From contig NZ_JAPQNS010000014.1 in assembly GCF_028867935.1 (NCBI RefSeq), forward strand, positions 1 to 64,000: a stretch of 64,000 nt of DNA. Direction: 5' to 3'. Source of the DNA: Flavobacterium sp. SUN052 (GTDB lineage: Bacteria; Bacteroidota; Bacteroidia; Flavobacteriales; Flavobacteriaceae). Under the pieces are notes generated by a model. It was not told where the DNA came from. It saw only the letters and a program-made list of their open reading frames with translations, and searched no databases. The translations under genes and the position numbers were made by a program. Positions 45,072-62,222 of the stretch are shown here, one piece after another (the first letter of the stretch is position 1; each line of letters starts with the position of its first letter).

Positions 45072-46316
45072 ATGAAACGATACCTAACTCCCTTTATCGC
45101 CGTTGCTTCCTGCCTCTTTTCAGTTGGTAGCGCAGCCCCGGTTAGGCCCATTGACGCAGTCCTCAGCAGTGAAACGTCAAGAAACTTCACCGTGCTTGAC
45201 GAGCGCAGGATTGCCGCCGTAAAAGCCAGTCTGAAAAAGAAAGAGGCCACGTATGCTCCTTATTATCAGGACGCACTGAAAGCTGCCGACAAGCAGCTGA
45301 CGGGCAAACTAACGTCGGTGGTAACCAAAACGCAGACCCCGCCCAGTGGCGACAAACACGACTACTTGAGCCTTGCCCCCTACTGGTGGCCCGACCCAGC
45401 CAAAGCCGATGGCCTGCCCTGGATTCGCAAAGACGGGCAGGTGAACCCTCTCACGCGGGGTGATAATGTCGATCAGCCCGCCAAAGATGCCATGTTCAAA
45501 CGGGCCGAAACATTGGCTACGGCCTGGTACTTTTCGGACGACCGGAAATATGCCCAACGGGCCGTTGAAGTGCTGCAAACGTGGTTCATAAACCCCGAAA
45601 CCAAAATGAATCCTAACCTGAATTTTGGTCAGGGCGTGCCGGGAGTGAGTACGGGCCGGGGCTTCGGCATCATTGAGTTTACGGGCGTAATCGACCTAAC
45701 CACGACCATCGAAATGCTCCGACAGGGCAACGCGCTCGACCCGAAAACGGATGCCGGATTGGTGTCCTGGCTCACGGAGTACGTCAACTGGTTGCAAACG
45801 GGTAAGCTGGCCTTAGAAGAGAAAGCCACAATGAACAATCACGGCACCTGGTACGACGCGCAGGTAGTCGCTATCCTGTTGTTTCTGAAACGGGATGCTG
45901 AGGCCAAAGCCGTTCTCGAATCCACAACCAAAAAGCGCATCGACCATCAGCTTGATGCCGATGGTTCGCAACCCGAAGAACTGTCCCGCACCAAATCGCT
46001 GTCATACAGCATTATGAATCTCAACGCCTTCACGCACCTGTCCTATTTCGGGAAGTTGCTCAACGTTGATTTGTGGAACTACAAAAACCCCAAAGGCGGC
46101 AGTATTCAGAAAGCCTACGAGTTTCTGCAACCCTACGCCGAGGGCAAAGCTAACTGGACCCGCGAACAATTAGGCGACCTTGCCCCGGAACTCGATAAAC
46201 TGCGCCGGTTATTCGTGGATGCGGGCAGTATGATGAATAAGACGGATTACTGCGCGTTTGCGTCGAGCGTTCGGGACAAAAACAGTACAAGCCGCCTGAC
46301 CAGACCGTGTGAGTAA
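45072..46316 (+). CDS. Alginate-lyase-fold polysaccharide lyase (uronan lyase-like)
   Basis: This encodes 414 residues from ATG 45072 (signal peptide TPFIAVASCLFSVGSAA); a TTG at 45060 is an alternative. The alpha/alpha barrel of the alginate_lyase Pfam family is indicated by DYLSLAPYWWPDP, the catalytic-type MNNHGTWYDAQ and the late QPEELSRTKSLSYSIMN. Relatives cleave alginate or glucuronan by beta-elimination. With GH105 downstream, a uronic-acid substrate is likely. Its last codons overlap the sigma factor start by 8 bases. Confidence 0.82.
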   Translation: MKRYLTPFIAVASCLFSVGSAAPVRPIDAVLSSETSRNFTVLDERRIAAVKASLKKKEATYAPYYQDALKAADKQLTGKLTSVVTKTQTPPSGDKHDYLSLAPYWWPDPAKADGLPWIRKDGQVNPLTRGDNVDQPAKDAMFKRAETLATAWYFSDDRKYAQRAVEVLQTWFINPETKMNPNLNFGQGVPGVSTGRGFGIIEFTGVIDLTTTIEMLRQGNALDPKTDAGLVSWLTEYVNWLQTGKLALEEKATMNNHGTWYDAQVVAILLFLKRDAEAKAVLESTTKKRIDHQLDADGSQPEELSRTKSLSYSIMNLNAFTHLSYFGKLLNVDLWNYKNPKGGSIQKAYEFLQPYAEGKANWTREQLGDLAPELDKLRRLFVDAGSMMNKTDYCAFASSVRDKNSTSRLTRPCE

Positions 46317-46956
46317 GCCGCGTTCATCCAATACCGGGCAAACTGACCAACAACTATGGCTTCAGATGAAAGCCGACAGCGAACTTGCGTTTTCTAAGCT
46401 TGTCAAAGTGTATTTTCGGCAATTAGTCAACTACGGCTTCCGGTTTGTGCGGGATGAGGAATTTGTTAAGGATTGCGTGCAGGAAGTGTTTATCGAAATC
46501 TGGAAACGCCGGCAGCGCATCAACGTACCCGATAGCATAAAGGCGTATCTGCTCAGTTCGGTTCGGCGGAAGTTGTATCGGGAAAGCTCCCGGCAGAAGT
46601 TCGAAGCGGGCGAATTTGACCTGGACTTTGCCAACGACCCCTCGCTAACCGAAGAACCGTTTGAGTGGATGCTAATTAACGATGAGCAGGAGCAACAGAT
46701 TCAGGCCAAAGTTGATGCCGTGCTGAATGAACTTCCCCGTCGGCAACGGGAAGTGGTCTATTTGCAGTACTTTCAAAATATGAGCCGTGAGGAAATTGCC
46801 GACACAATGGGCATCAATCCGCAGTCGGTTTCCAACCTGTTACAATTAGCGTTTAAGTTCATCCGAACACGCTGGAGTACCCTAATCATTCTGTTAATGA
46901 TTATTGGTATTCTCCGTAGCCTATCAAATTTTTCCAGTTGGAAGGGTATGGATTGA
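46309..46956 (+). CDS. ECF sigma factor with C-terminal membrane segment
   Basis: This encodes 215 residues. Sigma-2 (about 22-90) includes VKDCVQEVFIEIWKRR, and sigma-4 (about 135-185) includes LPRRQREVVYLQYFQNMSREEIADTMGI. The start is GTG 46309, inside the end of the lyase gene. A hydrophobic stretch STLIILLMIIGIL at about 190-202 follows sigma-4, which could tether the factor to the membrane. It is followed by FecR and an STN-type SusC, so it should switch on the unit from SusC 3 onward when substrate is sensed. Confidence 0.9.
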   Translation: MSKPRSSNTGQTDQQLWLQMKADSELAFSKLVKVYFRQLVNYGFRFVRDEEFVKDCVQEVFIEIWKRRQRINVPDSIKAYLLSSVRRKLYRESSRQKFEAGEFDLDFANDPSLTEEPFEWMLINDEQEQQIQAKVDAVLNELPRRQREVVYLQYFQNMSREEIADTMGINPQSVSNLLQLAFKFIRTRWSTLIILLMIIGILRSLSNFSSWKGMD

Positions 46957-46991
46957 TTTTGGGTGCCATCTATTAAGAAATCACGCTCCAC

Positions 46992-48077
46992 ATGATGCCG
47001 AAGGAACAGGCGGACTATACGATTCAGGACTTGCTTCAACAGGAGCAGTTTCGGGAGTGGGTACTGAACAACGATTCGGAGGGGGATGCGTTCTGGACGA
47101 ACTGGATGGTTGCCAAACCCGAAAACGCCCGGAAGGTTCATGTTACCAAAGCCATTTTACTGAATTTACAGGAGACCCCCGTAGCTATTTCCGACGAGGA
47201 GATAGACGATTTTGTGGCCGACACGGTGGACGAAAACCGACCCAAAATGATCTTTTTCTGGCGCAGTCCGGCGTTACGAATCGCGGCCTCTATCCTGTTG
47301 GTGTTGGGCATTGGTGGCGTACTATACAGGCAGATCGTTCTGAAACCGGGCCAATCGACTGTCGCCAACGGCCAACCGGCCATCGGCAAATACATCGAAA
47401 ACATTAACGATACTGATAAACCCGTCCGCATTCAATTGTCGGAGAACAGCGTGATCACGCTTTACCCTAACAGCACCATCAAGTACCCAAACCCGTTTGA
47501 GACAACGAAGCGGATCGTTTTTTTACGGGGAAAAGCCTTTTTCGAGATTTCCCACAACCCCAAAAAACCGTTTTGGGTGCATAGTAGCCAACTTTCTACG
47601 CAGGTGCTTGGTACGAGTTTTTTGGTAAATGCTTACGAAAATCAGTCGGTGTCAAGTGTAGAGGTGCGTTCGGGCAAGGTATCTGTCTATCTGCATAAAG
47701 ACCTGAACTCAGGCAAACAGGTGGGCAACCCTAATTTGGCGGGTGTGGTGCTGACTCCCAATCAGCAGGCAACCATTGCCGGAACAGACGAACGATTGGT
47801 AAAGTCCATTGTGCCGGAACCGGAATTAGTGGCTGCACCCGCCAAAGAGACATTCATTTTTGAAGATACGCCATTGAAAGATGTGTTAGGTGTACTGAGT
47901 GCTGCCTACGGAATCTCGATTAACTATGACGAGAAAACGCTCCAGAACTGCCACTTGACGGCCAACATGACCGAAGAATCTCTGTTTGAGAAACTCAACC
48001 TGATTTGTCGGATTACAGATTCTACGTATGAAATAGTTGATGCCCAAGTTGTTATGCACAGTAACGGATGTAATTAA
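46992..48077 (+). CDS. FecR-family anti-sigma factor
   Basis: This encodes 361 residues. The cytoplasmic N-terminal part (to about 92) binds the sigma factor, one transmembrane helix lies at about 95-113, and the periplasmic FecR domain (about 140-245) has VRIQLSENSVITLYPNSTI and FLRGKAFFEISHNP. A DUF4974/STN-like domain (about 283-355) includes TPLKDVLGVLSAAYGISI. It relays the signal from the STN domain of SusC 3 to the sigma factor. It lies 35 bases after the sigma gene. Confidence 0.92.
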   Translation: MMPKEQADYTIQDLLQQEQFREWVLNNDSEGDAFWTNWMVAKPENARKVHVTKAILLNLQETPVAISDEEIDDFVADTVDENRPKMIFFWRSPALRIAASILLVLGIGGVLYRQIVLKPGQSTVANGQPAIGKYIENINDTDKPVRIQLSENSVITLYPNSTIKYPNPFETTKRIVFLRGKAFFEISHNPKKPFWVHSSQLSTQVLGTSFLVNAYENQSVSSVEVRSGKVSVYLHKDLNSGKQVGNPNLAGVVLTPNQQATIAGTDERLVKSIVPEPELVAAPAKETFIFEDTPLKDVLGVLSAAYGISINYDEKTLQNCHLTANMTEESLFEKLNLICRITDSTYEIVDAQVVMHSNGCN

Positions 48078-48100
48078 ACGTATTTTCAGGCTTCATGTAT

Positions 48101-48127
48101 AAGGCATTTAGCCAGGTGCCTTTTTTT
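48101..48127 (+). terminator. Rho-independent terminator after FecR
   Basis: AAGGCA (48101-48106) pairs with TGCCTT (48117-48122), and seven T follow. It separates the sigma/FecR transcript from the SusC 3 operon it should control. Confidence 0.7.
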
Positions 48128-48232
48128 ACGGGCGATGATTCAGGGTTGGATTATTTTTAAAGTTTCTTTAATAATAAGGAGTATTCGAGTTCCAGTGCTG
48201 GCATCTACCAATAAAAAAACCTTTAACCGTAG

Positions 48233-51200
48233 ATGGATAAACAGCTACTCGTCGGGTACATTCACCAGGTTGCAAAACGGACTATCGCCCAGTTCCTCTG
48301 CATTGCCTTATTTGCGGGTATAGCTCACGCACACGACTCGGCCGGGCAGGAACTTCTTGACCAAACCATTAGCATCGAACTCGTTAACGAAGATCTGCGG
48401 TCTTCCCTCAGCAAGCTCGAAAAAGCATCGCGCGTTCGTTTCGTTTTTAATCCGAAACAGCTAATTGTAGGCCAGAAGATTAACTTCAAAGCTACAAACG
48501 AGCAGCTACGGCAGGTACTCGATCAGATATTTAGACCGCTGAAAATTACGTATGAATCGACAGCGAACCGGCAGATTCTCCTGTTCAGAAAAGACGTCGG
48601 TGTTACAGATCTGCCCGCAATGGAGGGTCAGGTAGCATTGGCAAAAACGATAAAAGGAGCCGTTACCGATTCGGAGGGGGCCGCGTTGGTAGGCGTGTCG
48701 GTACTGGTGAAGGGAACCCTCAACGGAACCGTGACCGATGCCAAAGGCAACTACCAGATCTCGGTGCCGAATGAGAAGGCAATTTTGGTGTTTTCGTTTG
48801 TGGGGTTTACCAAAAAAGAAATACTCGTTGCCAATAACTCCACCATCAACGTGGCCCTGTCGCCTGATAATCAGGCTCTCGATGAGGTTGTGGTGACGGG
48901 TTATTCAACTACGAACCGCAAGGACATTCTGGGTTCGATCAGTTCCATCAAGGAAAAAGACATTGAGCAGACAACCCCCGTCAACGCCTTCGATGCGGTG
49001 CAGGGGCGGATTGCCGGGGTGCAAATCTCCTCGAACGGCGGGCCGGGGTCGGGGTCTGATATTCGCATTCGGGGAACGTCAACGTTTTCGGCGGGGGTGA
49101 ATCCGCTGTATGTGGTCGATGGGCAGCAGTTGGAAGACATTGACAACCTCAACCCAAACGACATTGCCTCGATAGAAGTGCTGAAAGACGGGGCTTCGGC
49201 GGCCATCTACGGGTCAAAATCAGCCAACGGCGTGATCATCATTACCACCAAATCGGGAAAGACCAACGATTTCAAGCTCGACGTGGACTACGGGCGAGTC
49301 TATAGTCAGGTGGCAAGTGCCATCCCGGTGGCCAACACCCGGCAGCGTTTTTATTATGAGAACGTGCGGGCCGGGTTGTTGCCAGAGGCCCAATTAGCTG
49401 ATTCGACCAGTCTGTTGTACCAGATTTCCAACGATCTGAGTAGCTTAGTAACCCGCACGGGCGTACGGGATCAGGTTAACGTATCGCTGAGTGGCGGCAC
49501 CAACCGGACCCGGTTTTACTGGAATACGGGCTACCTGAACGAAAACGGTATTGTGCTCAACAGCTCCTACACCCGCCTGAGTTCGAAATTGAAATTAGAC
49601 CTCGAAATCAACAAGCGAATGAACGGCGGCACGGCCCTCAACCTGTCGTATGAGCTGACTAAGGGTTTGAACGAAAACAGCGTGTTTCAGCAAATTGCCG
49701 AGCGGATTGCTTATTACCCTATTCTTGAACCCAACGGAACATACACCCCGGAGATTGCGGGTCGGCAAAATCCGGTGGCCGAAGCCCTGTTTACCACCCG
49801 CGACAACCGGAACTACCGCGCTCAATCGTTTAGCTTTCTTGAGTTTGAGCTTGCCCCCTGGCTCACGTTCAAAACCACGCTGGGGATCAATTTCAGGCTG
49901 AACAAGCAAAACAATTTCGACCCACTCGTGGTGCAAACGGTGGGTCGGCCTGCCACGGGCAGCGAGGGCTACGGCCTGAGTTATGACCTGCTTCAGGAAA
50001 ATTACTTCCGGTTCAAAAAACGGTTTGGCAAACACTCGCTGGGGGCATTGGCGGGTTATTCTACCCAACGCTGGGAAGAGGAAACCTCTGATCTGGTGGC
50101 GATTTCGTTTGTTTCCGACAATATCCGCACCTTCAACAACGTCGCTGAGTTTAACCTCGGCAACACACGCACCGATAAGTTTCGGCACGCGCTGACGGGC
50201 CTTTTCGGGGATGTCTCGTATGACTACGGCGGCAAGTATTTGGTCAAAGCGACGCTTCGGCGGGATGGTTCGTCGCGGTTTGGGTCGAATAAGCGGTATG
50301 GCCTTTTTCCGTCGGGTTCGGTGGGCTGGCGGGTGAGCAACGAGCCATTTTTCAAGCGCATGCCGCAGGTCAACAATCTGTTGCTGAAAGCGAGTTTCGG
50401 GGCCACCGGCAACGAGCGCGTGGGCAACTACGAATCGCTGTTACTGTATCGTCCGGGGTTTTATTACAACGGGGTCAACGGCGTAGCGAGTTTTCAGTTG
50501 TCGAACCCCAACTTGGGCTGGGAGAGTACGCTGTCGGTCAACTACGGGCTGAACGCTACCCTGTTTCAGTCCCGGTTAAACGTGGAGGTTGACTTCTGGC
50601 AGAAAACCACCCGGAACCTGCTCTACAACGTACCGATTCCCGAAGAAACGGGGTTTTCGGTATCGCGGCAGAACATCGGCTCGGTGGGCAACAGTGGGAT
50701 CGACATCAACCTCAGCGGAACGCCCTACCGGAAAGGCTCATTCGAGTGGTTCAGCAGTTTCAACATCACCTTCCAGAAAAATAAAGTGCTTGAACTGGCT
50801 GACGAAGACGGCTTTACGTCGGGCAACTTCTTTGTTCAGCAGGGTGCGTCGATTGGGAATTTCTACGGGTATCGCAACCTCGGCGTGTTCCCGACCGATC
50901 AGCACAATGCTTTCGATGCGGGTGGCAAACAGTTGACTCCCATTTTTGAGAACGGGGCGTTCGTGAAATACCAGCTAAACGGGGCCGACTATACCGGCAC
51001 TGTTAACCGTCAGAAAATCGGCGCGACCGTGCTGCGGGGGGGCGATATTTACTGGCAGGATCTCGACAACAATTTCTCGATTGATGGCCTCGACCGGCAG
51101 GTGATCGGCAACGGACTACCAAAATATTTTGGCGGGTTTTTCAACGAATTCAAGTACGGAGCGGCCTCGCTGTCGTTTCTGTTCGATTACACGTTTGGCA

Positions 51201-51625
51201 ACCAGATTTTCCGCAACTACGATCAGCAGCGCAACGACCTGAACTCGGCGGGTGAAACGCCCTCGCCCGAACGAATCGAAAAAGCATGGGTAAAGACAGG
51301 CGACCTGACCGAGTTTGCCAGCCTCGACCGGGGCCGCACCCAAAACCGGCTGGGACCAAACTCGCAGTACATCAGCAAAGGTGAGTACATCAAGTTTAGG
51401 AATATTCGGTTTTCGTACCGGCTGCCGGCAACGCTGCTCAAAAAAACGCCCTGGCTGAAAAATGCGTCGGTTAATTTTTCGGTCAACAACCTCGTCACGT
51501 TCACCAACTACCCCGGCTACAACCCTGAACTCGGTGCGCGTGGCAACGTGCTGCAACCGGGTCAGGACGATCTGCGGTATCCGAACAAGCGGGATTTTAT
51601 TATCGGGATAAAAGCAGGATTTTAA
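48233..51625 (+). CDS. SusC 3, FecA-like TonB-dependent transporter with STN signalling domain
   Basis: This encodes 1130 residues. After a signal peptide the STN domain (about 45-118; ISIELVNEDLRSSLSKLEKA) would contact FecR. Next come the CarboxypepD-reg-like domain (IKGAVTDSEGAALVGVSVLVKG), a plug with DEVVVTGYSTTNRKDILGS, VDGQQLEDI and GSKSANGVIIITTKSG, and a barrel ending IKAGF. It is the only full-length SusC here with an STN domain and sits directly after the sigma/FecR pair, so import and signalling are probably combined. SusD 3 follows after 15 bases. Confidence 0.95.
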   Translation: MDKQLLVGYIHQVAKRTIAQFLCIALFAGIAHAHDSAGQELLDQTISIELVNEDLRSSLSKLEKASRVRFVFNPKQLIVGQKINFKATNEQLRQVLDQIFRPLKITYESTANRQILLFRKDVGVTDLPAMEGQVALAKTIKGAVTDSEGAALVGVSVLVKGTLNGTVTDAKGNYQISVPNEKAILVFSFVGFTKKEILVANNSTINVALSPDNQALDEVVVTGYSTTNRKDILGSISSIKEKDIEQTTPVNAFDAVQGRIAGVQISSNGGPGSGSDIRIRGTSTFSAGVNPLYVVDGQQLEDIDNLNPNDIASIEVLKDGASAAIYGSKSANGVIIITTKSGKTNDFKLDVDYGRVYSQVASAIPVANTRQRFYYENVRAGLLPEAQLADSTSLLYQISNDLSSLVTRTGVRDQVNVSLSGGTNRTRFYWNTGYLNENGIVLNSSYTRLSSKLKLDLEINKRMNGGTALNLSYELTKGLNENSVFQQIAERIAYYPILEPNGTYTPEIAGRQNPVAEALFTTRDNRNYRAQSFSFLEFELAPWLTFKTTLGINFRLNKQNNFDPLVVQTVGRPATGSEGYGLSYDLLQENYFRFKKRFGKHSLGALAGYSTQRWEEETSDLVAISFVSDNIRTFNNVAEFNLGNTRTDKFRHALTGLFGDVSYDYGGKYLVKATLRRDGSSRFGSNKRYGLFPSGSVGWRVSNEPFFKRMPQVNNLLLKASFGATGNERVGNYESLLLYRPGFYYNGVNGVASFQLSNPNLGWESTLSVNYGLNATLFQSRLNVEVDFWQKTTRNLLYNVPIPEETGFSVSRQNIGSVGNSGIDINLSGTPYRKGSFEWFSSFNITFQKNKVLELADEDGFTSGNFFVQQGASIGNFYGYRNLGVFPTDQHNAFDAGGKQLTPIFENGAFVKYQLNGADYTGTVNRQKIGATVLRGGDIYWQDLDNNFSIDGLDRQVIGNGLPKYFGGFFNEFKYGAASLSFLFDYTFGNQIFRNYDQQRNDLNSAGETPSPERIEKAWVKTGDLTEFASLDRGRTQNRLGPNSQYISKGEYIKFRNIRFSYRLPATLLKKTPWLKNASVNFSVNNLVTFTNYPGYNPELGARGNVLQPGQDDLRYPNKRDFIIGIKAGF

Positions 51626-51640
51626 CGACACCCATCTCAG

Positions 51641-53101
51641 ATGAAGACAATCTATACACTCATTGGCCTGATGCTGACCACCTTGCTTGTTAGTTCGTGC
51701 GAGGGTATCCTCGATCAGCAGCCGTACAGCCAATTGTCGGAAGAACAATTCTGGCGCACCAATGCTGATGCTACGTCGGGGGTTACGGCCATGTATGATG
51801 CCATGCAGAAAACCTACAATTCGAAGTATTACAGTTGGGGTGAGTTCCGGGCCGACAACTTTGTGCGGGCGGGTGCTGCTTCGGCCGAGGCTCTCGAATT
51901 GCTCAATAATAGCCTGACCCCCTCCAATGCCGGATCGTTGCGCTGGAATAACTTTTACCTGATTATCGCGAGAGCCAACATCGCCATCGCCAATATTCCC
52001 AACATTTCGGGCTACGACCGGCAACTGCTTGGCGAGGCCCATGCCGTGCGGGCTTACGCTTATTTTCACGCGATTCGGGTTTGGGGCGACGTGCCGCTAT
52101 ACACCGAACCCGTAACGGGACTGGATCAGGAAATCAAAAAGTCTAAAACGAAAGCCGCCGAGATTATGAATCAGGTCATTATCCCGGATATGCTCAATGC
52201 GGAGACGTTACTGACCCAAAACACGAATACCTATCGGTTCTCCAAAGCGGGCATCTGGTCGTTGCAGGCCGAGGTGTATATGTTTTTGAAGGATTTTGCG
52301 AAAGCCAAAGTCGCCCTCACGAATATCACCAGACTCGGCACGTTTTCGCTCGTAACGACCCGCGATACCTGGTGGAAACAGTTTTTGAACGATCCGGGGC
52401 AGGGTGGCAAATTTCAGACAAGCCCCGAATTTATTTTCAACATTCGCTATAGTCAGACCGAAGACAGCGACCGCAGCGGTATTTACGCGGTGTTTTTCGC
52501 CGGTATTCCCAACTACTTTATCAGCCCGGCCCTGGAGCGAAACTGGATTGCCAAGTTCCCGATTGATTCGGTTTCGTGGTACAAACTCTACCCCACCTTT
52601 CCGCCCCGAACCAAAGATGCAGCCGGAAAAACGTTCTTCGGCGACTGGCGGTATTTTGAGAGTCGGGAAGCTACAGCCGCTCAGGGGCTGGCCCGACTGG
52701 CCAAATATAACAAGTTTCAGGTCAATGTGAGCTTCGACGATACCGACATTATCGTCTATCGGTACGCCAACACGCTGACTATGCTGGCCGAGGCCGAGAA
52801 TCAGTTGGGCAATAAGGATGCCGCCGTTGCGCTGATGAATCAGATTCGCACGGCGCGTCAACTACCCACTGTGCGGGCAACCGATTTTACAACGAAAGAG
52901 CAACTTGAAAACTTCATTCTCGATGAACGGCAGTTAGAATTCATTGGGGAGGGTGTTCGCTGGTGGGACCTCCGCCGAACGGGTAAGGCCGTGCAGGTGA
53001 TGGGGCCAATTAACGGGCAAACCGAGCAAAAACTGCTGTTCCCCATTTTCGACCGGCACCTATTCGACAACCCGCTCCTGACACAAACTGAGGGCTATTA
53101 A
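51641..53101 (+). CDS. SusD/RagB glycan-binding lipoprotein 3
   Basis: This encodes 486 residues with a lipobox ending VSSC. The family pattern includes EEQFWRTNADATSGVTAMYD, the TPR-like LGEAHAVRAYAYFHAIRVWGDVP, and the C-terminal LDERQLEFIGEGVRWWDLRRTGK block ending LTQTEGY. It pairs with SusC 3 and is probably in the ECF-controlled operon. Confidence 0.93.
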   Translation: MKTIYTLIGLMLTTLLVSSCEGILDQQPYSQLSEEQFWRTNADATSGVTAMYDAMQKTYNSKYYSWGEFRADNFVRAGAASAEALELLNNSLTPSNAGSLRWNNFYLIIARANIAIANIPNISGYDRQLLGEAHAVRAYAYFHAIRVWGDVPLYTEPVTGLDQEIKKSKTKAAEIMNQVIIPDMLNAETLLTQNTNTYRFSKAGIWSLQAEVYMFLKDFAKAKVALTNITRLGTFSLVTTRDTWWKQFLNDPGQGGKFQTSPEFIFNIRYSQTEDSDRSGIYAVFFAGIPNYFISPALERNWIAKFPIDSVSWYKLYPTFPPRTKDAAGKTFFGDWRYFESREATAAQGLARLAKYNKFQVNVSFDDTDIIVYRYANTLTMLAEAENQLGNKDAAVALMNQIRTARQLPTVRATDFTTKEQLENFILDERQLEFIGEGVRWWDLRRTGKAVQVMGPINGQTEQKLLFPIFDRHLFDNPLLTQTEGY

Positions 53102-53155
53102 AATTTTACCCCCCGCCGATAAACTTAAGAACAAACCCGATACTCCCCATTCCAT

Positions 53156-53812
53156 ATGTTTTCGCATCTGAAATACTTCTTCGTTCTCGTGTTGTTTCTT
53201 CCCCTGATTGGTTGCGATCTGGAGGTGCAGAAGCCCTTTGAGTTTGTACCTGAAGTAAAAACCTTCGCCACCTTCGAGAATCAAACCGTTTGGGAGTGGC
53301 TACAAACCCAGAAATCACCCAGCAGCCTCACAACGGTCGATCAATACAAGTTTGATTTCCTGATCGAAGCCATCGAATACACGGGTCTGGTGGACGAGTT
53401 CAATCGGAAGACCGACCGGCGAACGTTTCTGTTGCTGAACAACAACGCCTTCGATGATGCCAACAAGATTCTGCAAACGCTGACGGGCAAGGTAACAGGG
53501 CCGGTTCGGGCCGCCGATAAAACCCGGCTGACGAATCTGCTGAAATACCACATCATCGACAAGGAGTATATCACGCAGATCGACCCCTTGTTCGTGTTTG
53601 GGGCCGATTATTTTTTCCAGACCATGAATGAAGGTGACAATGGGAAGATACTGCTTCGCCGGGCCGACCGCTACGATATTTCGGTGAACCCGGCCACCGT
53701 TTTTCCGTTAAGTACGGCCCGCCGGGGTACTGTCGTGCGAACGCACAACCTGCGCTACGCCAACGGAATCGCCCACGTGCTTAACGATTACACGCGCAAC
53801 GTCGCTTTTTAA
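53156..53812 (+). CDS. Fasciclin-domain surface lipoprotein
   Basis: This encodes 218 residues with a lipobox ending LIGC, so it is lipid anchored. One fasciclin (FAS1) domain covers about 42-215, with TVWEWLQTQ, a FLLLNNNAFDD strand, LLKYHIIDK (the conserved FAS1 H-box) and a final ANGIAHVLNDY. It occupies the place where SusE/F-type glycan-binding lipoproteins usually lie, directly after SusD 3 and 10 bases before sulfatase 5. A role in glycan or matrix adhesion is inferred from position. Confidence 0.82.
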   Translation: MFSHLKYFFVLVLFLPLIGCDLEVQKPFEFVPEVKTFATFENQTVWEWLQTQKSPSSLTTVDQYKFDFLIEAIEYTGLVDEFNRKTDRRTFLLLNNNAFDDANKILQTLTGKVTGPVRAADKTRLTNLLKYHIIDKEYITQIDPLFVFGADYFFQTMNEGDNGKILLRRADRYDISVNPATVFPLSTARRGTVVRTHNLRYANGIAHVLNDYTRNVAF

Positions 53813-53821
53813 GATTTTCGG

Positions 53822-55876
53822 ATGAATGTTTGGTTTACGCTGCTCCTGGTTTGTTTGTCCACCCTGGTTGCAAACGGGCAATCAGCGGCCCGGCCCAACA
53901 TCATTTTCATCCTGACCGACGATCATCGATCGGATGCGCTGGGGTATGCGGGGAATCGGTTCGCGCACACGCCCGAAATGGACAAACTCGCGCGGACGGG
54001 GACGTACTTCAAAAACGCCGTTGTCACCACGCCCATTTGCACCGCAAGCCGGGCCACCATCCTAAGCGGGATGCACGAGCGGACCCACAAGTACACCTTT
54101 CAGTCGGGTACTATCCGGTCGGAATACATGGAAACGGCTTACCCCAAACTCCTGAAAGAGGCTGGTTATTACACGGGTTTCTACGGGAAGCTCGGCGTTA
54201 AGTACGACGCTACAGACAAACTGTTCGACGTTGTGGAGGATTACGACCGGAACGGAAAATTCACGGATCGGCGTAGCTATTTCTACAAAACGATTGGCAA
54301 AGACACCGTTCACCTGACCCGCTACACCGGCCAGAAAGCGGTTGATTTTATCCAGAATGCCCCCACTAAGCAGCCGTTCTGCCTGTCGCTCAGTTTCTCG
54401 GCACCCCACGCCCACGACTCAGCCCCCGACCAGTATTTTTGGGACGAACAGACAGCGGCTTGGCTGGAAAACGAGACCATTCCACCCCCGCCCCTGAGTG
54501 CCGATACCGATTTTAACCGCCAACCCGATGCCGTGAAAGCCGGGTTCAGTCGGTTGCGGTGGACATGGCGATTCGATACGCCCGAAAAATACCAGCGCAT
54601 GGTGAAGGGCTACTACCGGATGATTGCGGGCGTAGACCTCGAAGTGGCCCGCATCCGGGCGCAGCTCAAACAAAGGGGGTTGGACAAGAACACCGTCATT
54701 ATCGTGATGGGCGACAACGGTTATTTCCTCGGCGAACGGCAGTTGGCCGACAAGTGGCTCATGTACGATGCCTCGATTCGGGTGCCGCTGATTGTCTATG
54801 ACCCACGGGTGGCCCAACATCAGGACGTGGAAGCCATCGCCCGAAACATCGACATTCCCTCGACCATCCTCGACCTGGCAGGCGTGAAGCAACCAACTAT
54901 TTATCAGGGAAAAATCCTGCGACCCTTAACAACAACACTCCAATCGAATCGTCGGGTGGGGCTTTGCGACACGGTGCTGATTGAGCACCTCTGGGCGTTT
55001 GAATCCATTCCGCCGAGCGAGGGTGTAAGAACAAACGACTGGAAGTATTTCCGATACGTAAACGATAAATCGCTCGAAGAACTTTACCACCTTAAAAACG
55101 ACCCGACCGAAGCCACCAACCTTGCCAAACAAGAAGCCTACCGGTCCGTGCTGAACAAACTCCGGCAGAAAACGGATCAACTTATTGCCCGCTACAAAGA
55201 CCCGTATTCGGGCGTGCCGACGGGTTTGATAGCTGACAGTACTCCTAACTTTTCGTGGGTTGTCCCAACCGAAGCCGTTTTCCAATTGGGGTATCAGCTT
55301 TTGGTGGCTTCGTCGAAAGACATGCTCGACAACAACGTGGGCGATGTGTGGGATAGCCGGCAGGTTCGCAGCCGCCAATCGACGGGGGTGCCGTATGGGG
55401 GACTGGCGTTGAAAACCGGGGTGCCGTATTTCTGGAAAGTCAGAATTTGGGACACCGACAACCGAACGAGCGACTATTCGGCAGGACAATCGTTTCGGGT
55501 GGGGGAACCGGGAATCTCGGCAGTTTCGGACCCCCCAAATAAACCCAGCCCAGCGGATCAGCAGTTGTGGGGAATTCAGCCCCAAACGCCGGGAAACTCT
55601 ATTCTGACCATCCGGCCTCAGTTGGGCAAACTGACCAAAAGCCAGATAGACCTACCTACGATCAAAGGAACAGTTCGGGCCTCGTATCAGCGCAAAAGCA
55701 AAACAGAGCAGGTATATCAGATCGAGTTGCCCGCCAACGTATCGGCAGAGTTGACTCTGACGTACTCCCCCGAAGACACTGTTTTGCTCAACGGCGGCAA
55801 GGTCAACACCATGTTCGACACGATCAGGCTGTCGCCCGGAATAAATCGGATCGAGTTGATTGTCAATACTTACTAA
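53822..55876 (+). CDS. S1-family sulfatase 5 fused to rhamnosidase-type flanking domains
   Basis: This encodes 684 residues with a signal peptide. The S1 core (to about 455) has [16 protein letters not shown] with C73, YGKLGVKY and MGDNGYFL. A second part (about 466-560; [14 protein letters not shown]-like [36 protein letters not shown]) resembles the Ig-like N-terminal domain of GH78 alpha-L-rhamnosidases. A third part (about 590-684; [29 protein letters not shown]) resembles the GH78 C-terminal sandwich. The (alpha/alpha)6 catalytic barrel that should lie between them is missing. The signature has Ala instead of Pro, which the maturation enzymes accept. Confidence 0.88.
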
Positions 55877-55896
55877 CTAATGAACCATTCTATCCC

Positions 55897-57339
55897 ATGC
55901 AAATAGCCGTACCACTTTCCCTTGTTTTGATGCTCGGTTTGCTTGTAGGCTTCAAAAAACAACCCCACGCGCCAGACAAAATGAACGTCCTGTTCATTGT
56001 CGCCGACGATTTGCGGCCTGAGTTGGGCAGTTTTGGGGCCACGCATATCAAATCGCCCAATATCGACAAGTTGGCCGCAGGAAGTGCCATTTTTGAGCGG
56101 GCCTACTGCAACATACCCGTTTGTGGGGCCTCACGGGCGAGCCTACTATCGGGGGCGAGACCGGCTCGTTACCGTTTTGCTGGATTTGCCGATTTCCTGA
56201 ACGAGCAATACCCGGAGGCAAAATCCATACCCCGCATTTATCACGAAAACGGCTACGCAACTATCTCGAATGGCAAAATTTTTCATCAAAAGAAAGACGA
56301 GCGAGATGCTTGGGACGAAATCTGGCAAGCCAAAGGCAACGACGAATTAGACTATATCAACCCGGTCAATGTTGAGCTGGTGAAAAACGAACCCGCCCGA
56401 AAAGACAACAATCGGGGTTATCCTTACGAAGACGTAGCCATCAACGATACTGATTACCGGGATGGCAAAATGGCGTTGAAAATCAAGCAGGATTTGCAGA
56501 AGTTCAAGAAAAGCGCGAAGCCTTTTTTCCTAACGGTTGGTTTTCACAAGCCCCATTTGCCGTTTAATGCGCCCAAAAAATACTGGAATTTGTACGACAG
56601 TACCAAAATTCAACTACCTGCCAATTACAGCCAACCGGCCAGCACCCCGAAAGTGGCGTTTCATAATTCGGGTGAGCTACGGAATTACTACAGCGTGCCC
56701 GACAAAGGGCTTGTTTCTAAAGACTTAGCCAGAAAATTGATACATGGCTACTACGCCAGCGTGAGTTATGTGGATGCTCAGTTGGGTATCATCATGGACG
56801 AGCTTGCCCGGTTGGAGTTAGACAAAAACACGATTGTAGTACTGATCGGTGATCACGGCTGGAATCTCGGCGACCATCAGTTGTGGAATAAACACTGCAA
56901 CTTTTCGTCGTCGCTGAGAACGCCGTTGCTGATCAAAATCCCGCAAAAAACATCGGGGCAGCGCATCAACGACATCGTGGAGTTTATCGATATTTTCCCA
57001 ACCTTGGCGGAGTTAACCCACTTGCCCAAACCCAATACGGCGGTGGGCGAGAGTGTAGTGCCGTTGATCGAAAACCGGAAACGAACCAAGACGTTTGCCA
57101 TCTCGCGGTGGGGTGATGCGCTGACCGTCATCAAGGATCAGTATTTCTACACCGAATGGACCGACGATAAAGACAACCGCACCGCCCGCATGTTGTTCGA
57201 CCACAAAACGGACCCGTCGGAGCTAAAAAATTTGGCTGAGCAACCCGAACAGGCTGGGGTGGTTACCGAGCTATCTGACCTGATGCGAAAGAACCGGGGA
57301 GCCGATTTTTGGGAAGACAAACGAAAGACAAAGCCATAA
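55897..57339 (+). CDS. S1-family sulfatase 6 (iduronate-2-sulfatase-like)
   Basis: This encodes 480 residues from ATG 55897, 21 bases after sulfatase 5; the frame is open further upstream but only 55897 gives a signal peptide (AVPLSLVLMLGLLVGF). The motifs are ADDLRPELGSFG, CGASR with C76, NGKIFHQK, FHKPHLPFNAPKKYW and GDHGWNLGDHQLW, as in iduronate-2-sulfatase-like S1 members. This fits removal of sulfate from a uronic-acid-type or neighbouring residue. It is in the SusC 3 operon. Confidence 0.92.
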   Translation: MQIAVPLSLVLMLGLLVGFKKQPHAPDKMNVLFIVADDLRPELGSFGATHIKSPNIDKLAAGSAIFERAYCNIPVCGASRASLLSGARPARYRFAGFADFLNEQYPEAKSIPRIYHENGYATISNGKIFHQKKDERDAWDEIWQAKGNDELDYINPVNVELVKNEPARKDNNRGYPYEDVAINDTDYRDGKMALKIKQDLQKFKKSAKPFFLTVGFHKPHLPFNAPKKYWNLYDSTKIQLPANYSQPASTPKVAFHNSGELRNYYSVPDKGLVSKDLARKLIHGYYASVSYVDAQLGIIMDELARLELDKNTIVVLIGDHGWNLGDHQLWNKHCNFSSSLRTPLLIKIPQKTSGQRINDIVEFIDIFPTLAELTHLPKPNTAVGESVVPLIENRKRTKTFAISRWGDALTVIKDQYFYTEWTDDKDNRTARMLFDHKTDPSELKNLAEQPEQAGVVTELSDLMRKNRGADFWEDKRKTKP

Positions 57340-57356
57340 TTTGCGCCATTACAACC

Positions 57357-58484
57357 ATGCACAAACACCCCTATTTCATCCTTCTGCTGCTCTTTGCTTT
57401 AGCCTTTCCGGTTTTGGGTCAGGGTACGATCACCGTTCAGAACGAGGCCAACGTTGCCCGAAAAGAAGCCGTTGTCGGTGTTTCGTGGAAAGCTCTCAAA
57501 GCCCGTTACCCGGCACTCGATTCGGCCAATTTCAGGTTGATCGACAGCCGGACGAAGGCAGAGATTCCCTATCAGTTGGAACGGGTGGGTGAAGCGTCGG
57601 TGCAGAACCTGTTAATGCAGGTGTCGGTTCCGGGAAAGAGCAGCGTTCGGGTGACTATCCAGAAAGGCAAACCGGCTCCCGTTACGGCCAAAACCTTCGC
57701 CCGATACGTTCCCGAACGGCTCGACGATTTTGCGTGGGAGAACGACAAAGTGGCATTCCGCACCTACGGCAAGGCTCTCGAAGGCACCAAAGGCGATGCC
57801 TACGGGCTGGACGTGTGGGTAAAACGTACCGACAAACTCGTTATTGACGACCGATATAAGCGCGGCAAATACCACGAAGACATTGGCGACGGCCTCGACT
57901 ATTACCATGTGGGCCAAACCCTCGGCGCGGGCAATGTGATGCCCTACGTGGACGATTCGGTTTATTACTCCAAAAACTACCACCGCTGGAAGGTGCTCGA
58001 CAACGGCCCCATCCGAACCACGTTTGTGCTGGAGTATGACGAGTGGGACGTAAACGGCCTGAAGGTGACAGCCGCCAAGAAAATCACGCTGGATGCCGGT
58101 ACGCAGATGAACCGGGTTGAGGCTACTTACCGCTACACTGGGTCTACCAACCTGCCGGTTGCGGTCGGGATTATTAAACGACCGGAGCCGGGACAGATGC
58201 TGCTCGACGAACAGCGCGGGGTCATTGCCTACTGGGAACCGCAACACGGGCCGGACGGCATCACGGGCGTGGGTACGGTACTGCTTACACCCGTCACGGG
58301 CATGAAAATCACGAGTGAGCAACTCCTGGCGCAATCGACTTCGGTGCAAAACGAGCCGTTCGTATATTACACCGGGGCCTGCTGGAACAAAGCCGGGGTC
58401 ATCACCGATGCGCCCGCATGGTTCGCCTACTTGCAGGCATTCAAAGAAGCGTTGGCAAGCCCGCTCGTGGCGCGAATAAATTAA
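57357..58484 (+). CDS. DUF4861 family secreted protein
   Basis: This encodes 375 residues from ATG 57357, with a signal peptide (FILLLLFALAFPVLGQG). The body fits the DUF4861 family, with KVAFRTYGKALE, the central YHEDIGDGLDYYHVGQTLGAGN, and ITLDAGTQMNRVEATY. Members are common in PULs for uronic-acid glycans, next to GH105/GH88 and lyases, but their reaction is not known to me. It lies 17 bases after sulfatase 6 and 8 bases before the lyase. Confidence 0.82.
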   Translation: MHKHPYFILLLLFALAFPVLGQGTITVQNEANVARKEAVVGVSWKALKARYPALDSANFRLIDSRTKAEIPYQLERVGEASVQNLLMQVSVPGKSSVRVTIQKGKPAPVTAKTFARYVPERLDDFAWENDKVAFRTYGKALEGTKGDAYGLDVWVKRTDKLVIDDRYKRGKYHEDIGDGLDYYHVGQTLGAGNVMPYVDDSVYYSKNYHRWKVLDNGPIRTTFVLEYDEWDVNGLKVTAAKKITLDAGTQMNRVEATYRYTGSTNLPVAVGIIKRPEPGQMLLDEQRGVIAYWEPQHGPDGITGVGTVLLTPVTGMKITSEQLLAQSTSVQNEPFVYYTGACWNKAGVITDAPAWFAYLQAFKEALASPLVARIN

Positions 58485-58492
58485 GTTTAGTT

Positions 58493-61087
58493 ATGAAAAA
58501 TTTATTCAACTGTTTATTAGTCAGTATTTTATATTGCCAATCGGTCGTACTGGCTCAGGAGGTTGTGAGGCCGATGATTTGGGTAAAACAGGCGGATAAA
58601 GCGGCTATCCTGCAAAAGATCGCGACGACACCCTGGGCAAAAACGTACTACGAAGCCTTTAAAGCAAGGGCGGAAGTGGATGTTGCAAGGCATCAGGCCG
58701 ACGCAAAAACGTACCTGGGCAAAATGCCGCTCGACTGGTCGAAACAGACCGCCGGAAAAATACCCCCTTTCGTAAACATGACCGTGGTTAGTGACCATCG
58801 GGAATCGCGCAGAGAACTGATGCACTACCTGCAAACGGGCATCGACTGCGGCATTTTGTACTTCCTGACCAACGACGACCGCTACGCGCAACTGGGGGCC
58901 GATGTGTTGCATACCGTTATCGAGGGATTAGTGCAACTGCAACCGAACAAAGAAGGCCATAACGGCGGTGGACTATTGTACCCCACCGATCATTTGCGGG
59001 AATCCCGCGAGATTGGGGCATCCATCCCGATCCTCTACGATTTCGTTTATCCGTTTCTGTCAAAAAAAGGTCAGGTGTTCGATGTGGGTCAGGGAAAGAA
59101 AGTAGATTTCTCAGAGCAAAATGCCGAAAAAGTTTTCCGAACATACATCAACCTGGCTCTGGAACAGGGCATTATCGACTGCAACTGGCCAATTCTGGAA
59201 TCGCCGAGTCTGGTGGGCAACACGCTGGCTCTCAACGATCCCGCCGAACGCGCCAACTTTCTACCGTATTACCTCACCAAAAACACGCCCCATCAGGACG
59301 CGCTTCAAAAAGTCGGTCAGTTCTACCAGAAAAACGGCGGCAACTGGCCCGAAAGCACCAATTACTCCGGTTCTGTCGCGGGCCTGACCACCTACCTGAT
59401 GACGCTCCTGACTCGCTTCGACCCGTCGCTGCACCTCGGTCAGCAATATCCGCAGGTTCCGCTGGCACTAACCACCACCTACTACCTGACGTACCCCAAC
59501 AAGCGCGACATGGTGGTGTTCGGCGATGGGCACCGGACGTTTCACCTTGACTATAAAGCGTTCGAAATAGCCTACAGCCTGGGGCAGTTAGAAAACTCAG
59601 CGATCCTAAAACGCGAATTTGGGGCTTTGATTAATAGCGGTATTAACACCAAACAATACAACCGGCCCGAAGTGGGCAACCGCAACTATGGCGCGGAGGT
59701 CTATAACGAACCCGTTGAATTGCTGTGGTTTAGCCCAACCATCGACGGTGAAACGAAGGCATACCCGTTGCCCATCACCGACGAATTACCCTTTGCCGGG
59801 ATTCAGATTCAGCGCAATTTCAGCCCCACCAACAACCCTTCCGACGACCTGATGGGCTTTGTGGGCGGGGCATCGTTTGTGCATGGTCACGCATCGGGCA
59901 TGAACATGGAACTTTACGGCAAGGGCGTTGTGATGGGGTCGAAGTCGGGGCGCAGTGCCTACACGACCGACATACACGAGAACTACTACCGGCTTTTCGC
60001 GGGCCATAACACGGTGATTGTCAACGGCTCGTCGGAGGGAAGCGGGGGCTGGGCCAACCTCGGCACGAACCGGGTTGAGCCGGTGGCCGTTGAGCCAACC
60101 TATCGGCAGTCGGGCGTGTCGGCCAACCATTCGTTTTCGGTTTCGCGCTTCCTCGACGACCGGGGCGACGGAGCCGAGGCCACGCAGGAACGCACGTTGG
60201 CCCTCGTCCGCACCTCGCCCACAACCGGCTACTACGTGGACCTGTTCCGCTCGAAATCGGCCCTGCCCACGCAATACCACGACTACGTGTATCACAACAT
60301 TGGCGACACGCTTCTGTTCACCGCGCCGACTCCGGCTTTTCAACTTCGCCCTGACCCGGAGCGATACGCGGCTTCGGGGCAGAAAGAGTGGCAAAACAAC
60401 CGGAAAGCGCGGCATCCGGGCTGGCATTTTTTCAAGGTGGTCAACACGTCGGGGCCGTATGCAAACGAGGTGCGGGTCAGTTTCAAAGCTAACGCCATCC
60501 GCCCACAGCCGGTGCAAATGAATGTATTTATCCCCGGCGATGCCAACCGCGAATACACGAGCGTGATGGCCCCGCCCACCACGGAAGGCCCGCAAGCCTA
60601 CGCGAATCGCCCCACGCCGACGCTCGTGATTCGGCAAACGGGCGAAGCCTGGACGCACCCCTTCGCGGTAGTTTACGAACCGACTGATACAAACAGCAGT
60701 GGCAGCATTCAGTCCGTTGTGGCTATCCGGCAGGGTGACGCATTCAAGGGATTGACTATAAAGAGCAAAACCCCGAACGGGCCAATCACGCAATACGTAA
60801 TTATGCAGGACTCGGACGATGCCGAATTTTCCGACTCCAAACTCGGCATCCGCGTAAAGGGTCGATACGCCGTTATTACCCTGACCGACGCGAACAAACT
60901 GCACTCCATTTATCTGGGGCAAGGGCAATTAGGGTCATTCGGCAAACTGGTCCTGACCTCCGTTAGTGGCAAGCCCATAGCCGCCTACGTGCAAATGGAA
61001 ACCAATGGGCCAGCCGTCAAAGCTGCCGATACTGTTGAGGTTACAGTAGAGTCGGGGAAGCGAAAGATTTTCACTAAATCGAACTAA
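58493..61087 (+). CDS. Heparinase II/III-fold polysaccharide lyase
   Basis: This encodes 864 residues from ATG 58493, with signal peptide ([16 protein letters not shown]). An N-terminal alpha/alpha toroid (about 25-420) contains [14 protein letters not shown] and [19 protein letters not shown], followed by beta-sandwich domains with [21 protein letters not shown] and [20 protein letters not shown], the heparinase II/III layout. It may be related to lyases of the ulvan type (PL37-like), but I cannot fix the family. Beta-elimination would leave a 4,5-unsaturated uronic acid, which the GH105 encoded next would remove. Confidence 0.85.
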
Positions 61088-61115: not shown

Positions 61116-62222
61116 ATGAAAACCAGACTAATACTGCCGCTTTTTGCTGTTCTGCTACTTTGTCTGTCGTCGTGGAAACCGGGGCACGTACCCGATAAAA
61201 AAACAATTGAGCAGTCGATGCTGCGGGCGTTGGCCTGGCAGGAAGAGAACCCCATTTTCGCCAAAGCCCCCACCGACTGGACCAACGGTGCTTATTACAC
61301 GGGGGTGGTTCGGGCGCACAAATCGACCCGCAACAAAGCTTTCCTGGATGCGCTGACCGGCATGGCCACCCGCAACAATTGGCAACCCTACGAGCGTTTC
61401 TATCATGCCGACGACATGGCGATCTGCTATTCGTACCTGTACCTCAACGGTTTCGGCGAGAAAACGAACATGACTCCCACCGATAGCATCATCGCCCAAC
61501 ACCTCTACAAACCCCACGAATGGCGCGTGGGCATTCCCGACAAAGATCAGCGCATTTTGTGGTGGTGGTGCGACGCGCTTTTCATGGCCCCGCCCGTACT
61601 GACGGTGTACGCCAAGCAGAAGAAAGCCCCTGCTTACCTCGATCAGATGCACAAATACTACACCCAAACCTACGACCTGCTCTACAATAAAGACGATAAA
61701 CTGTTTGCCCGCGATGTCCGGTTTCTGTGGACGGGCAGCGATACCGACCGGAAAGAAGCCAACGGCAAGCATATCTTTTGGTCGCGGGGTAATGGCTGGG
61801 TGCTGGGCGGGCTGGCTCTGCTGCTGGAAGATATGCCGAAGACCTACAAGAACCGCCCGTTCTACGAGAAACTGTTCAAAGACATGGCCGCCCGGATCAA
61901 AGATCTGCAACCCGCCGATGGCCTTTGGCGCACCAGTTTGCTGGCTCCCGAAGCGTTCCCGCATGGCGAGGTGAGCGGCAGCGGATTCTTTACGTTTGGT
62001 CTGGCGTGGGGCATCAACAACGGCCTGTTAGACAAGGCTACCTACCAGCCCGCCGTGCTGAAAGCCTGGGATGCGTTGATGACCTGCCAACAGGAAAGCG
62101 GTAAAATTGGCTGGGTGCAGAATATCGGTTTCGACCCCAAACCCGCCGACAAAGACAGTTGGCAGAATTTCGGCACGGGTGCGTATCTACTGGCGGGGAG
62201 TGAGCTGCTGAAGATGAAGTAG
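61116..62222 (+). CDS. GH105 unsaturated glucuronyl/rhamnogalacturonyl hydrolase
   Basis: This encodes 368 residues with a short signal peptide. The GH105 pattern is clear: [15 protein letters not shown], the HADDMAICY block, the catalytic-type [12 protein letters not shown] (D153) and [16 protein letters not shown]. It hydrates and removes the 4,5-unsaturated uronic acid left by polysaccharide lyases, acting on lyase products in the periplasm. It follows the lyase by 28 bases and ends the operon. Confidence 0.92.

Follow-up and report, generated by a model that had tools for sequence, protein, structure and literature searches.

According to PMC8511951, P36 of Formosa agariphila is a fusion of an S1_25 sulfatase with a GH78 domain. 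As described there, the sulfatase desulfates the rhamnose at the non-reducing end of Rha3S-XXX-Rha3S, the GH78 domain then removes that rhamnose, and the two domains were analysed separately. Two other papers supply further points of reference, namely that CBM67 is domain D of SaRha78A (PMC4690510) and that Uly1040 is a PL40 ulvan lyase (PMC12915356).

The window examined here, by which we mean the whole stretch of 64,000 nucleotides that was analysed, contains a gene for a P36-like sulfatase that carries both flanking domains of a GH78 rhamnosidase, with the catalytic barrel between them missing.

Results

A sulfatase with both flanks of a rhamnosidase

The gene, taken from the list of open reading frames, lies at 53822..55876 on the forward strand, as do all features of the window given below. 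It codes for 684 residues, which Pfam and PDB matches identify as a barrel-less S1_25-type sulfatase with GH78 flanks. The sulfatase core (53894..55183) is made up of PF00884 at residues 25-355 (E = 1.4e-47) and SGSH_C at residues 304-454 (1.5e-26); PF01663 barely passes its cut-off (23.3 versus 23) inside the same part. Behind the core follow Ig_Rha78A_N (PF25788) at residues 470-561 (55229..55504; 1.5e-20, 73.9 bits against a cut-off of 27.4) and the GH78 C-terminal sandwich (55568..55873), in which Bac_rhamnosid_C (PF17390) matches residues 584-653 (4.6e-9, 36.4 bits against a cut-off of 22.1). The family of the (alpha/alpha)6 catalytic barrel, PF17389, is absent among the eight Pfam families listed up to E 1 for this frame. 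The protein thus has the Ig domain and the C sandwich of a GH78 alpha-L-rhamnosidase and lacks the barrel, so that it does not join two catalytic domains in one chain as P36-type S1_25-GH78 fusions do.

A sulfatase followed by a GH78-type Ig domain and C sandwich with no barrel is what the initial annotation had described, and the Pfam results confirm it. When the C-terminal 229 residues were scanned alone, the same two GH78 flank families came out best, followed by PF12733 at E 0.15, below its cut-off; among the 60 PDB matches listed, the two centred on the C-terminal part are the rhamnosidases 6i60 and 3w5m. The counter-proposal that this half fits ordinary sulfatase or FN3 domains better fails, because the GH78 flanks are the best match. 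That first description overlooked two things, the shortage of 12 residues in the Ig domain itself and the recurrence of barrel loss in relatives.

In the sulfatase half, the best PDB match is 6hr5 (2e-196 over residues 22-462), with the next PDB sequence at 5.3e-48. Its record is named alpha-L-rhamnosidase/sulfatase (GH78), and from this name we take it to be the sulfatase half of P36 of F. agariphila. The alignment places the formylglycine-type motif TPICTASR from residue 70 on (54029..54052, with Cys73), and C73, A75, and R77 are invariant in a 46-row alignment of homologs. A sulfatase fold with this motif, and a closest kinship to P36_S1_25 as judged through the PDB match to 6hr5, place the protein in S1_25. 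The 6hr5 chain has 467 residues, is matched to residue 466, and stops where the Ig domain would start; together with the separate analysis of the two P36 domains in PMC8511951, this means that the Ig domain is seemingly not needed for catalysis in P36.

The surrounding genes make this an ulvan-type utilisation locus, as judged from gene content. A SusC-like receptor (48233..51625), assigned by its position before SusD and by its own sequence rather than by a Pfam scan, and conserved in the syntenic locus L057 introduced below, is followed by a SusD-like protein (51641..53101; PF07980, 7.5e-26). Downstream of the fused gene are a second S1 sulfatase (55897..57339; best PDB match 6hhm, 1.3e-83), a DUF4861/BT_3233-family PUL protein identified by Pfam, whose start is uncertain (57309..58484), a heparinase-like protein akin to the PL40 ulvan lyase Uly1040 (58490..61087, with a listed frame start at 58418; 7.7e-207), and a relative of the unsaturated 3S-rhamnoglycuronyl hydrolase 4ce7 (61116..62222; 1.9e-152). 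A SusC/D pair (the SusC member by place and sequence only), kin of an ulvan lyase, a GH105/GH88-type hydrolase, and sulfatases are thus all present. The link to ulvan that the initial annotation drew for sulfatase-GH78 fusions is supported both by this inventory, with its Uly1040 and 3S-rhamnoglycuronyl hydrolase kin, and by the P36 fusion itself, described in PMC8511951.

Two further features of gene order may be recorded. A fasciclin-domain gene (53156..53812; 8.9e-7) lies between the SusD and sulfatase genes and is conserved in L057. In L057 the second-sulfatase and DUF4861 genes are separated by a gene for 372 residues with a weak Cellulase (GH5) match (L057:13120-14238); the corresponding interval of the window, 57339-57357, is too short to accommodate this gene, which was either lost in the window or gained in L057.

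Evidence for deletion of the barrel

Locus L057, from the MAG of Cytophagales bacterium PH2015_12D_54_44, is collinear with window positions 45966-60617 (about 14.6 kb) at 79-88% DNA identity per piece. At the place of the window gene it has a 1170-residue open reading frame with the barrel (PF17389, 163 bits). Over about 1100 residues, RpoB from the genome that contains the window shares 96.8% identity with its counterpart in this MAG and 84.4% with the one in Runella, so that a comparison of the window with L057 is one of close kin. Three members tested (G127, G018, and G001) of the family under which the window's genome is labelled have rpoB just 70-71% identical to its own. With rpoB nearer to the Cytophagales MAG and to Runella, the family label looks wrong.

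A second barrel-bearing relative, P0003 (1173 residues), is 89% identical to the window protein. In alignment with it, two stretches are missing from the window protein: residues 469-480, and a net 477 residues from the region 582-1070. Both losses are in frame, the first removing 12 codons of the Ig domain (55226, after residue 468, placed by alignment to full-length relatives) and the second a net 477 codons of the barrel region. The barrel motifs DGDRERIPYEAD and TWEAWD, present in L057 and P0003, are missing from the window protein in the alignment. P0002, a protein of 689 residues that is 87-88% identical and occurs on four contigs from another source, has the same domains and the same indel pattern as the window protein, and its frame is likewise open to the same C-terminal residue; it differs by five extra residues near the signal peptide and shows no further gap past that region.

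Of the 120 homologs listed, out of 4493 found, 117 carry PF17389. Together with the syntenic copy in L057, they support the proposed history of a fusion followed by deletion of the barrel, and the objection that relatives never carry the barrel fails on both counts. We regard deletion of the barrel from the window gene as well supported by these comparisons.

The order of events among the closest relatives is harder to read. A tree that makes the window protein and P0002 sisters has a log likelihood 0.90 lower (p-AU 0.495) and is neither favoured nor rejected. The nearest kin by sulfatase distance are P0002 and L057, by Ig distance the window protein with P0002 and P0003 with L057, and by C-domain distance P0002 and P0003; with neighbours that change from domain to domain, recombination among close kin may blur any tree.

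Between the Ig domain and the C sandwich, at the site of the barrel deletion, lies a short linker (55513..55567). Its DNA aligns to the L057 barrel end with a score of 15; among 2000 codon-position shuffles 11 reached this score, and among 40 segments from the 20-50 kb part of the window none did. At the protein level the match is not significant: the P0002 score was reached in 391 of 2000 shuffles and that of the window linker in 1255 of 2000, with a different best place. Derivation of the linker from an eroded barrel end is thus suggestive only.

Selection on the retained domains

Between the window and L057, omega was 0.102 for the sulfatase (95% interval 0.070-0.143), 0.155 for the Ig domain (0.077-0.284), and 0.118 for the C domain (0.055-0.240). 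Because these values span the barrel-bearing branch of L057, and because P0002 is a protein sequence only, they bear on constraint after the deletion indirectly. The window protein and P0002 differ at 9.2% of residues in the sulfatase, 14.3% in the Ig domain, and 15.7% in the C domain, far below the linker, where 8 of 17 residues differ. Low omega and low divergence between these two proteins speak for a kept function of the Ig and C domains.

Some relaxation may nevertheless have followed barrel loss in the Ig domain. The ratio of Ig to sulfatase divergence is 1.59 for the window protein and P0002, against a 10-90% range of 1.16-1.73 in 1272 full-length pairs, and it exceeds 1.73 in 32 of 51 barrel-less pairs, reaching 3.92, which suggests such an effect. 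The core of the domain is fully conserved in the 18 barrel-less rows (1.00 at W491, Q504, N517, W522, K551, R553, and Y564, in P0003 numbering). In contrast, conservation of I474 falls from 0.91 in the 85 full rows to 0.39 in the barrel-less ones, and that of R475 from 1.00 to 0.33; both residues sit inside the 12-residue stretch missing from the window protein. V493 (0.98 to 0.33) and P487 (1.00 to 0.56) fall likewise and lie outside that stretch. In our reading, the lost stretch of the Ig domain would face the barrel.

Barrel-less relatives

Shortened relatives recur in each sample surveyed. In the family that contains Runella, 40 of 222 genomes have a match, at 41 places in all, with frames of 1171-1219 residues (15), 571-649 residues (7), or 408-570 residues (19, some of them cut by contig ends); all seven of the middle group have the Ig domain and no barrel, and the Ig domain is absent in all eight of the shortest group that were examined. 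A sample of 249 genomes labelled as the window's family gave 34 places, 27 full-length and 7 shorter, the window's own among the latter. A class-wide sample of 395 genomes gave six, namely the window's, three full-length, and two sulfatase-only. The best 80 of 222 named loci comprise 71 full, 8 barrel-less, and 1 partial copy. S1_25-Ig proteins with no barrel occur in Emticicia, Flavobacterium, Arenibacter, and other genomes or MAGs, and the one match among plasmid records is from Persicobacter sp. JZB09 (54.5% over residues 1-561).

Single cases show the barrel in stages of decay. In L083, from Arenibacter, a stop follows the Ig domain and scattered barrel remnants lie behind it; in L110, from Maribacter sp. 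PR1, the barrel has an internal deletion and the DGDRERI motif is absent as read from the sequence. The status of L073 is unsure, as it ends near a contig end and stop-bearing pieces of barrel lie on another contig of its genome.

A tree of the sulfatase part with 115 rows (85 full, 18 barrel-less, 2 partial, and 10 sulfatase-only) has the barrel-less rows scattered inside full-length groups and requires at least 12 barrel changes by parsimony. This is a lower bound from a single quickly built tree, 39 of whose forks are open, rather than an exact count; an earlier tree of 91 rows gave 11. The trees combine the best 80 of 222 named loci, three barrel-less loci that were included deliberately (L031, L054, and L056), and six of the 120 listed proteins, of which P0002, P0088, and P0118 were picked for shortness. 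For the larger tree, loci of the Runella family and of the class-wide sample were added and nine duplicates and the paralog outgroup dropped; two identical full-length pairs remain. Second copies in G044 and G002, and the copy in G231, are short and stand outside all trees. The share of barrel-less proteins among rows so chosen is not a frequency. A GH78-type Ig domain is kept in every barrel-less row, which makes loss the natural direction of change, although the count of changes is no proof of it; several independent losses of this barrel appear to have taken place among related bacteria. The ten sulfatase-only rows form one separate clade (support 99), which may represent either the condition that preceded the fusion or the outcome of complete loss. 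Its members (L212-L219, L189, and L190) are 458-472 residues long and are sister to the fused clade when the tree is rooted on them.

Sixteen of the 18 barrel-less rows end 3-22 residues past the column of F570 (P0003 numbering), the final conserved phenylalanine of the Ig domain, and all 16 include the last Ig strand; several are close kin, so that independent lineages are fewer than rows. The C sandwich is kept only in the window protein and P0002. Flanking kin (PL40, GH105, S1_7-like, DUF4861, and alginate-lyase-like) accompany one of 8 barrel-less loci (L120), the one partial locus not at all, and 32 of 71 full ones, several of the barrel-less flanks being short. A literature search, with subscription journals mostly outside its scope, found no description of barrel loss from S1_25-GH78.

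Other GH78 enzymes

A profile search found seven PF17389 matches in the window's genome, none of them inside the window. The one at C12:41065-43341 (L142) is a stand-alone GH78 enzyme. Its barrel shares 47-49% identity with the fused one and contains the DGDRERIPYEAD and MEAWD motifs, and the remaining GH78 barrels of the genome are at 19-23% identity. On visual inspection, genes for a sulfatase and for a CxxCH-bearing protein are present in the vicinity of L142. In three Emticicia-like loci (L060, L061, and L126) the barrel-less gene has directly upstream of it a stand-alone GH78 enzyme 70-72% identical to another of the window's genome, on contig C1 (C1:1038432-1041383). Overall, a stand-alone GH78 occurs in the flank of 3 of 8 barrel-less loci, all Emticicia-like, and of 5 of 71 full ones; the one partial locus counts through its own decayed barrel. 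In 9 of 13 genomes with a barrel-less or partial copy and no second full copy, with that of L060 left out, no fused-type barrel was found at 1e-40. Replacement of the lost barrel in trans by a separate GH78 is therefore plausible in the window's genome, as judged from these matches, and is not a rule.

Discussion

The data are probably best explained if the protein is an S1_25-type exo-sulfatase of an ulvan-type locus, derived by in-frame deletions from a P36-like fusion, in which the Ig domain and C sandwich are structural leftovers. The ancestor would have been bifunctional, with S1_25 and GH78 in one chain as in P36. Its gene would have lost 12 codons close to where the Ig domain begins and a net 477 codons between the Ig domain and the C sandwich, among them those of the six-hairpin barrel. 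The sulfatase would still remove the 3-sulfate from the rhamnose at the non-reducing end of ulvan oligosaccharides, by analogy with P36, and a GH78 enzyme encoded elsewhere in the genome may take the next step, removal of that rhamnose. The kept domains would then serve as a structural cap or spacer on which the sulfatase relies, rather than as a catalytic or proven binding module. A tentative extension, about which we are more doubtful than hopeful, is that the sulfatase has captured the Ig domain as part of its own structure, so that the break falls just past this domain when the rhamnosidase is lost. In the window's lineage, the kept C sandwich is perhaps a new partner for an Ig domain deprived of its barrel-facing stretch.

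The most serious competitor is that the remnant is a neutral relic on its way to loss, which the sulfatase does not need. Erosion near the Ig start and in the linker, the absence of the C sandwich from 16 of 18 barrel-less rows, the existence of a sulfatase-only clade, and the Ig divergence above the 90th percentile of full-length pairs in many barrel-less ones all fit it. Against it stand omega values of 0.12-0.16 in the Ig and C domains, a frame kept open in both the window and P0002, differences of 14-16% in these domains, far below the linker, and the last Ig strand in every truncated row, albeit from fewer independent lineages; on balance we regard it as unlikely. Less likely still is the proposal of the initial annotation that the remnant now serves to bind rhamnose-rich glycan, as a carbohydrate-binding module would; the analysis turned up no positive evidence of such binding. 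The beta-sandwich domains do belong to a glycan-degrading enzyme in an ulvan-type locus, and aromatic residues of the Ig domain are conserved in barrel-less rows. But the same aromatics are equally conserved in the full-length proteins and may merely hold the fold; the rhamnose-binding module described in a GH78 enzyme (PMC4690510) is a different domain, CBM67; and the scan of the C-terminal 229 residues, with Pfam models rather than a dedicated CBM67 model or structure, returned no CBM family.

Two readings deny the deletion altogether, and both are extremely improbable. One holds that there never was a full fusion in this lineage, the Ig and C domains having been added separately, or the barrel inserted later in relatives. 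The barrel-less L211, a long branch, does sit at the base of the fused clade, and the number of changes gives no direction; yet the Ig and C domains correspond to the N- and C-terminal ends of a single GH78 and follow one another as they do there, L057 has a barrel-bearing copy at the same place, and barrel-less rows are scattered within full-length groups. The other, a barrel collapsed by an assembly or sequencing error, has nothing in its favour beyond the case being a single window. P0002, with the same indels on four contigs of another source, speaks against such an error, and the next match in the window's own genome is just 44% identical, so that there is no second copy to confuse.

Physical coupling of the two steps is dispensable if the family has time and again dropped the second and retained the first. 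A protein of the sulfatase-Ig_Rha78A_N kind should not be annotated as a rhamnosidase. The natural series of full, partial, Ig plus C, Ig-only, and sulfatase-only forms allows the roles of non-catalytic domains in fused enzymes to be tested.

Compared with known systems, the parent, S1_25-GH78, is known and the truncated variant is new as far as the literature search shows; the recurrent loss of the barrel is the more interesting fact. The window protein resembles P36 of F. agariphila KMM 3901 in its sulfatase domain, through the match to 6hr5, and in its ulvan-type locus; with no GH78 barrel, it should not perform the second of the two P36 steps. The full-length fusion of L057 occupies the same syntenic place and differs in having the whole barrel and the 12 Ig residues. 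The S1_25-Ig proteins of Emticicia, Flavobacterium, and Arenibacter share the sulfatase and Ig_Rha78A_N without a barrel and, unlike the window protein, have no C sandwich. The GH78 rhamnosidases 6i60 and 3w5m, with longer chains of 944 and 1043 residues, match it over the Ig part only.
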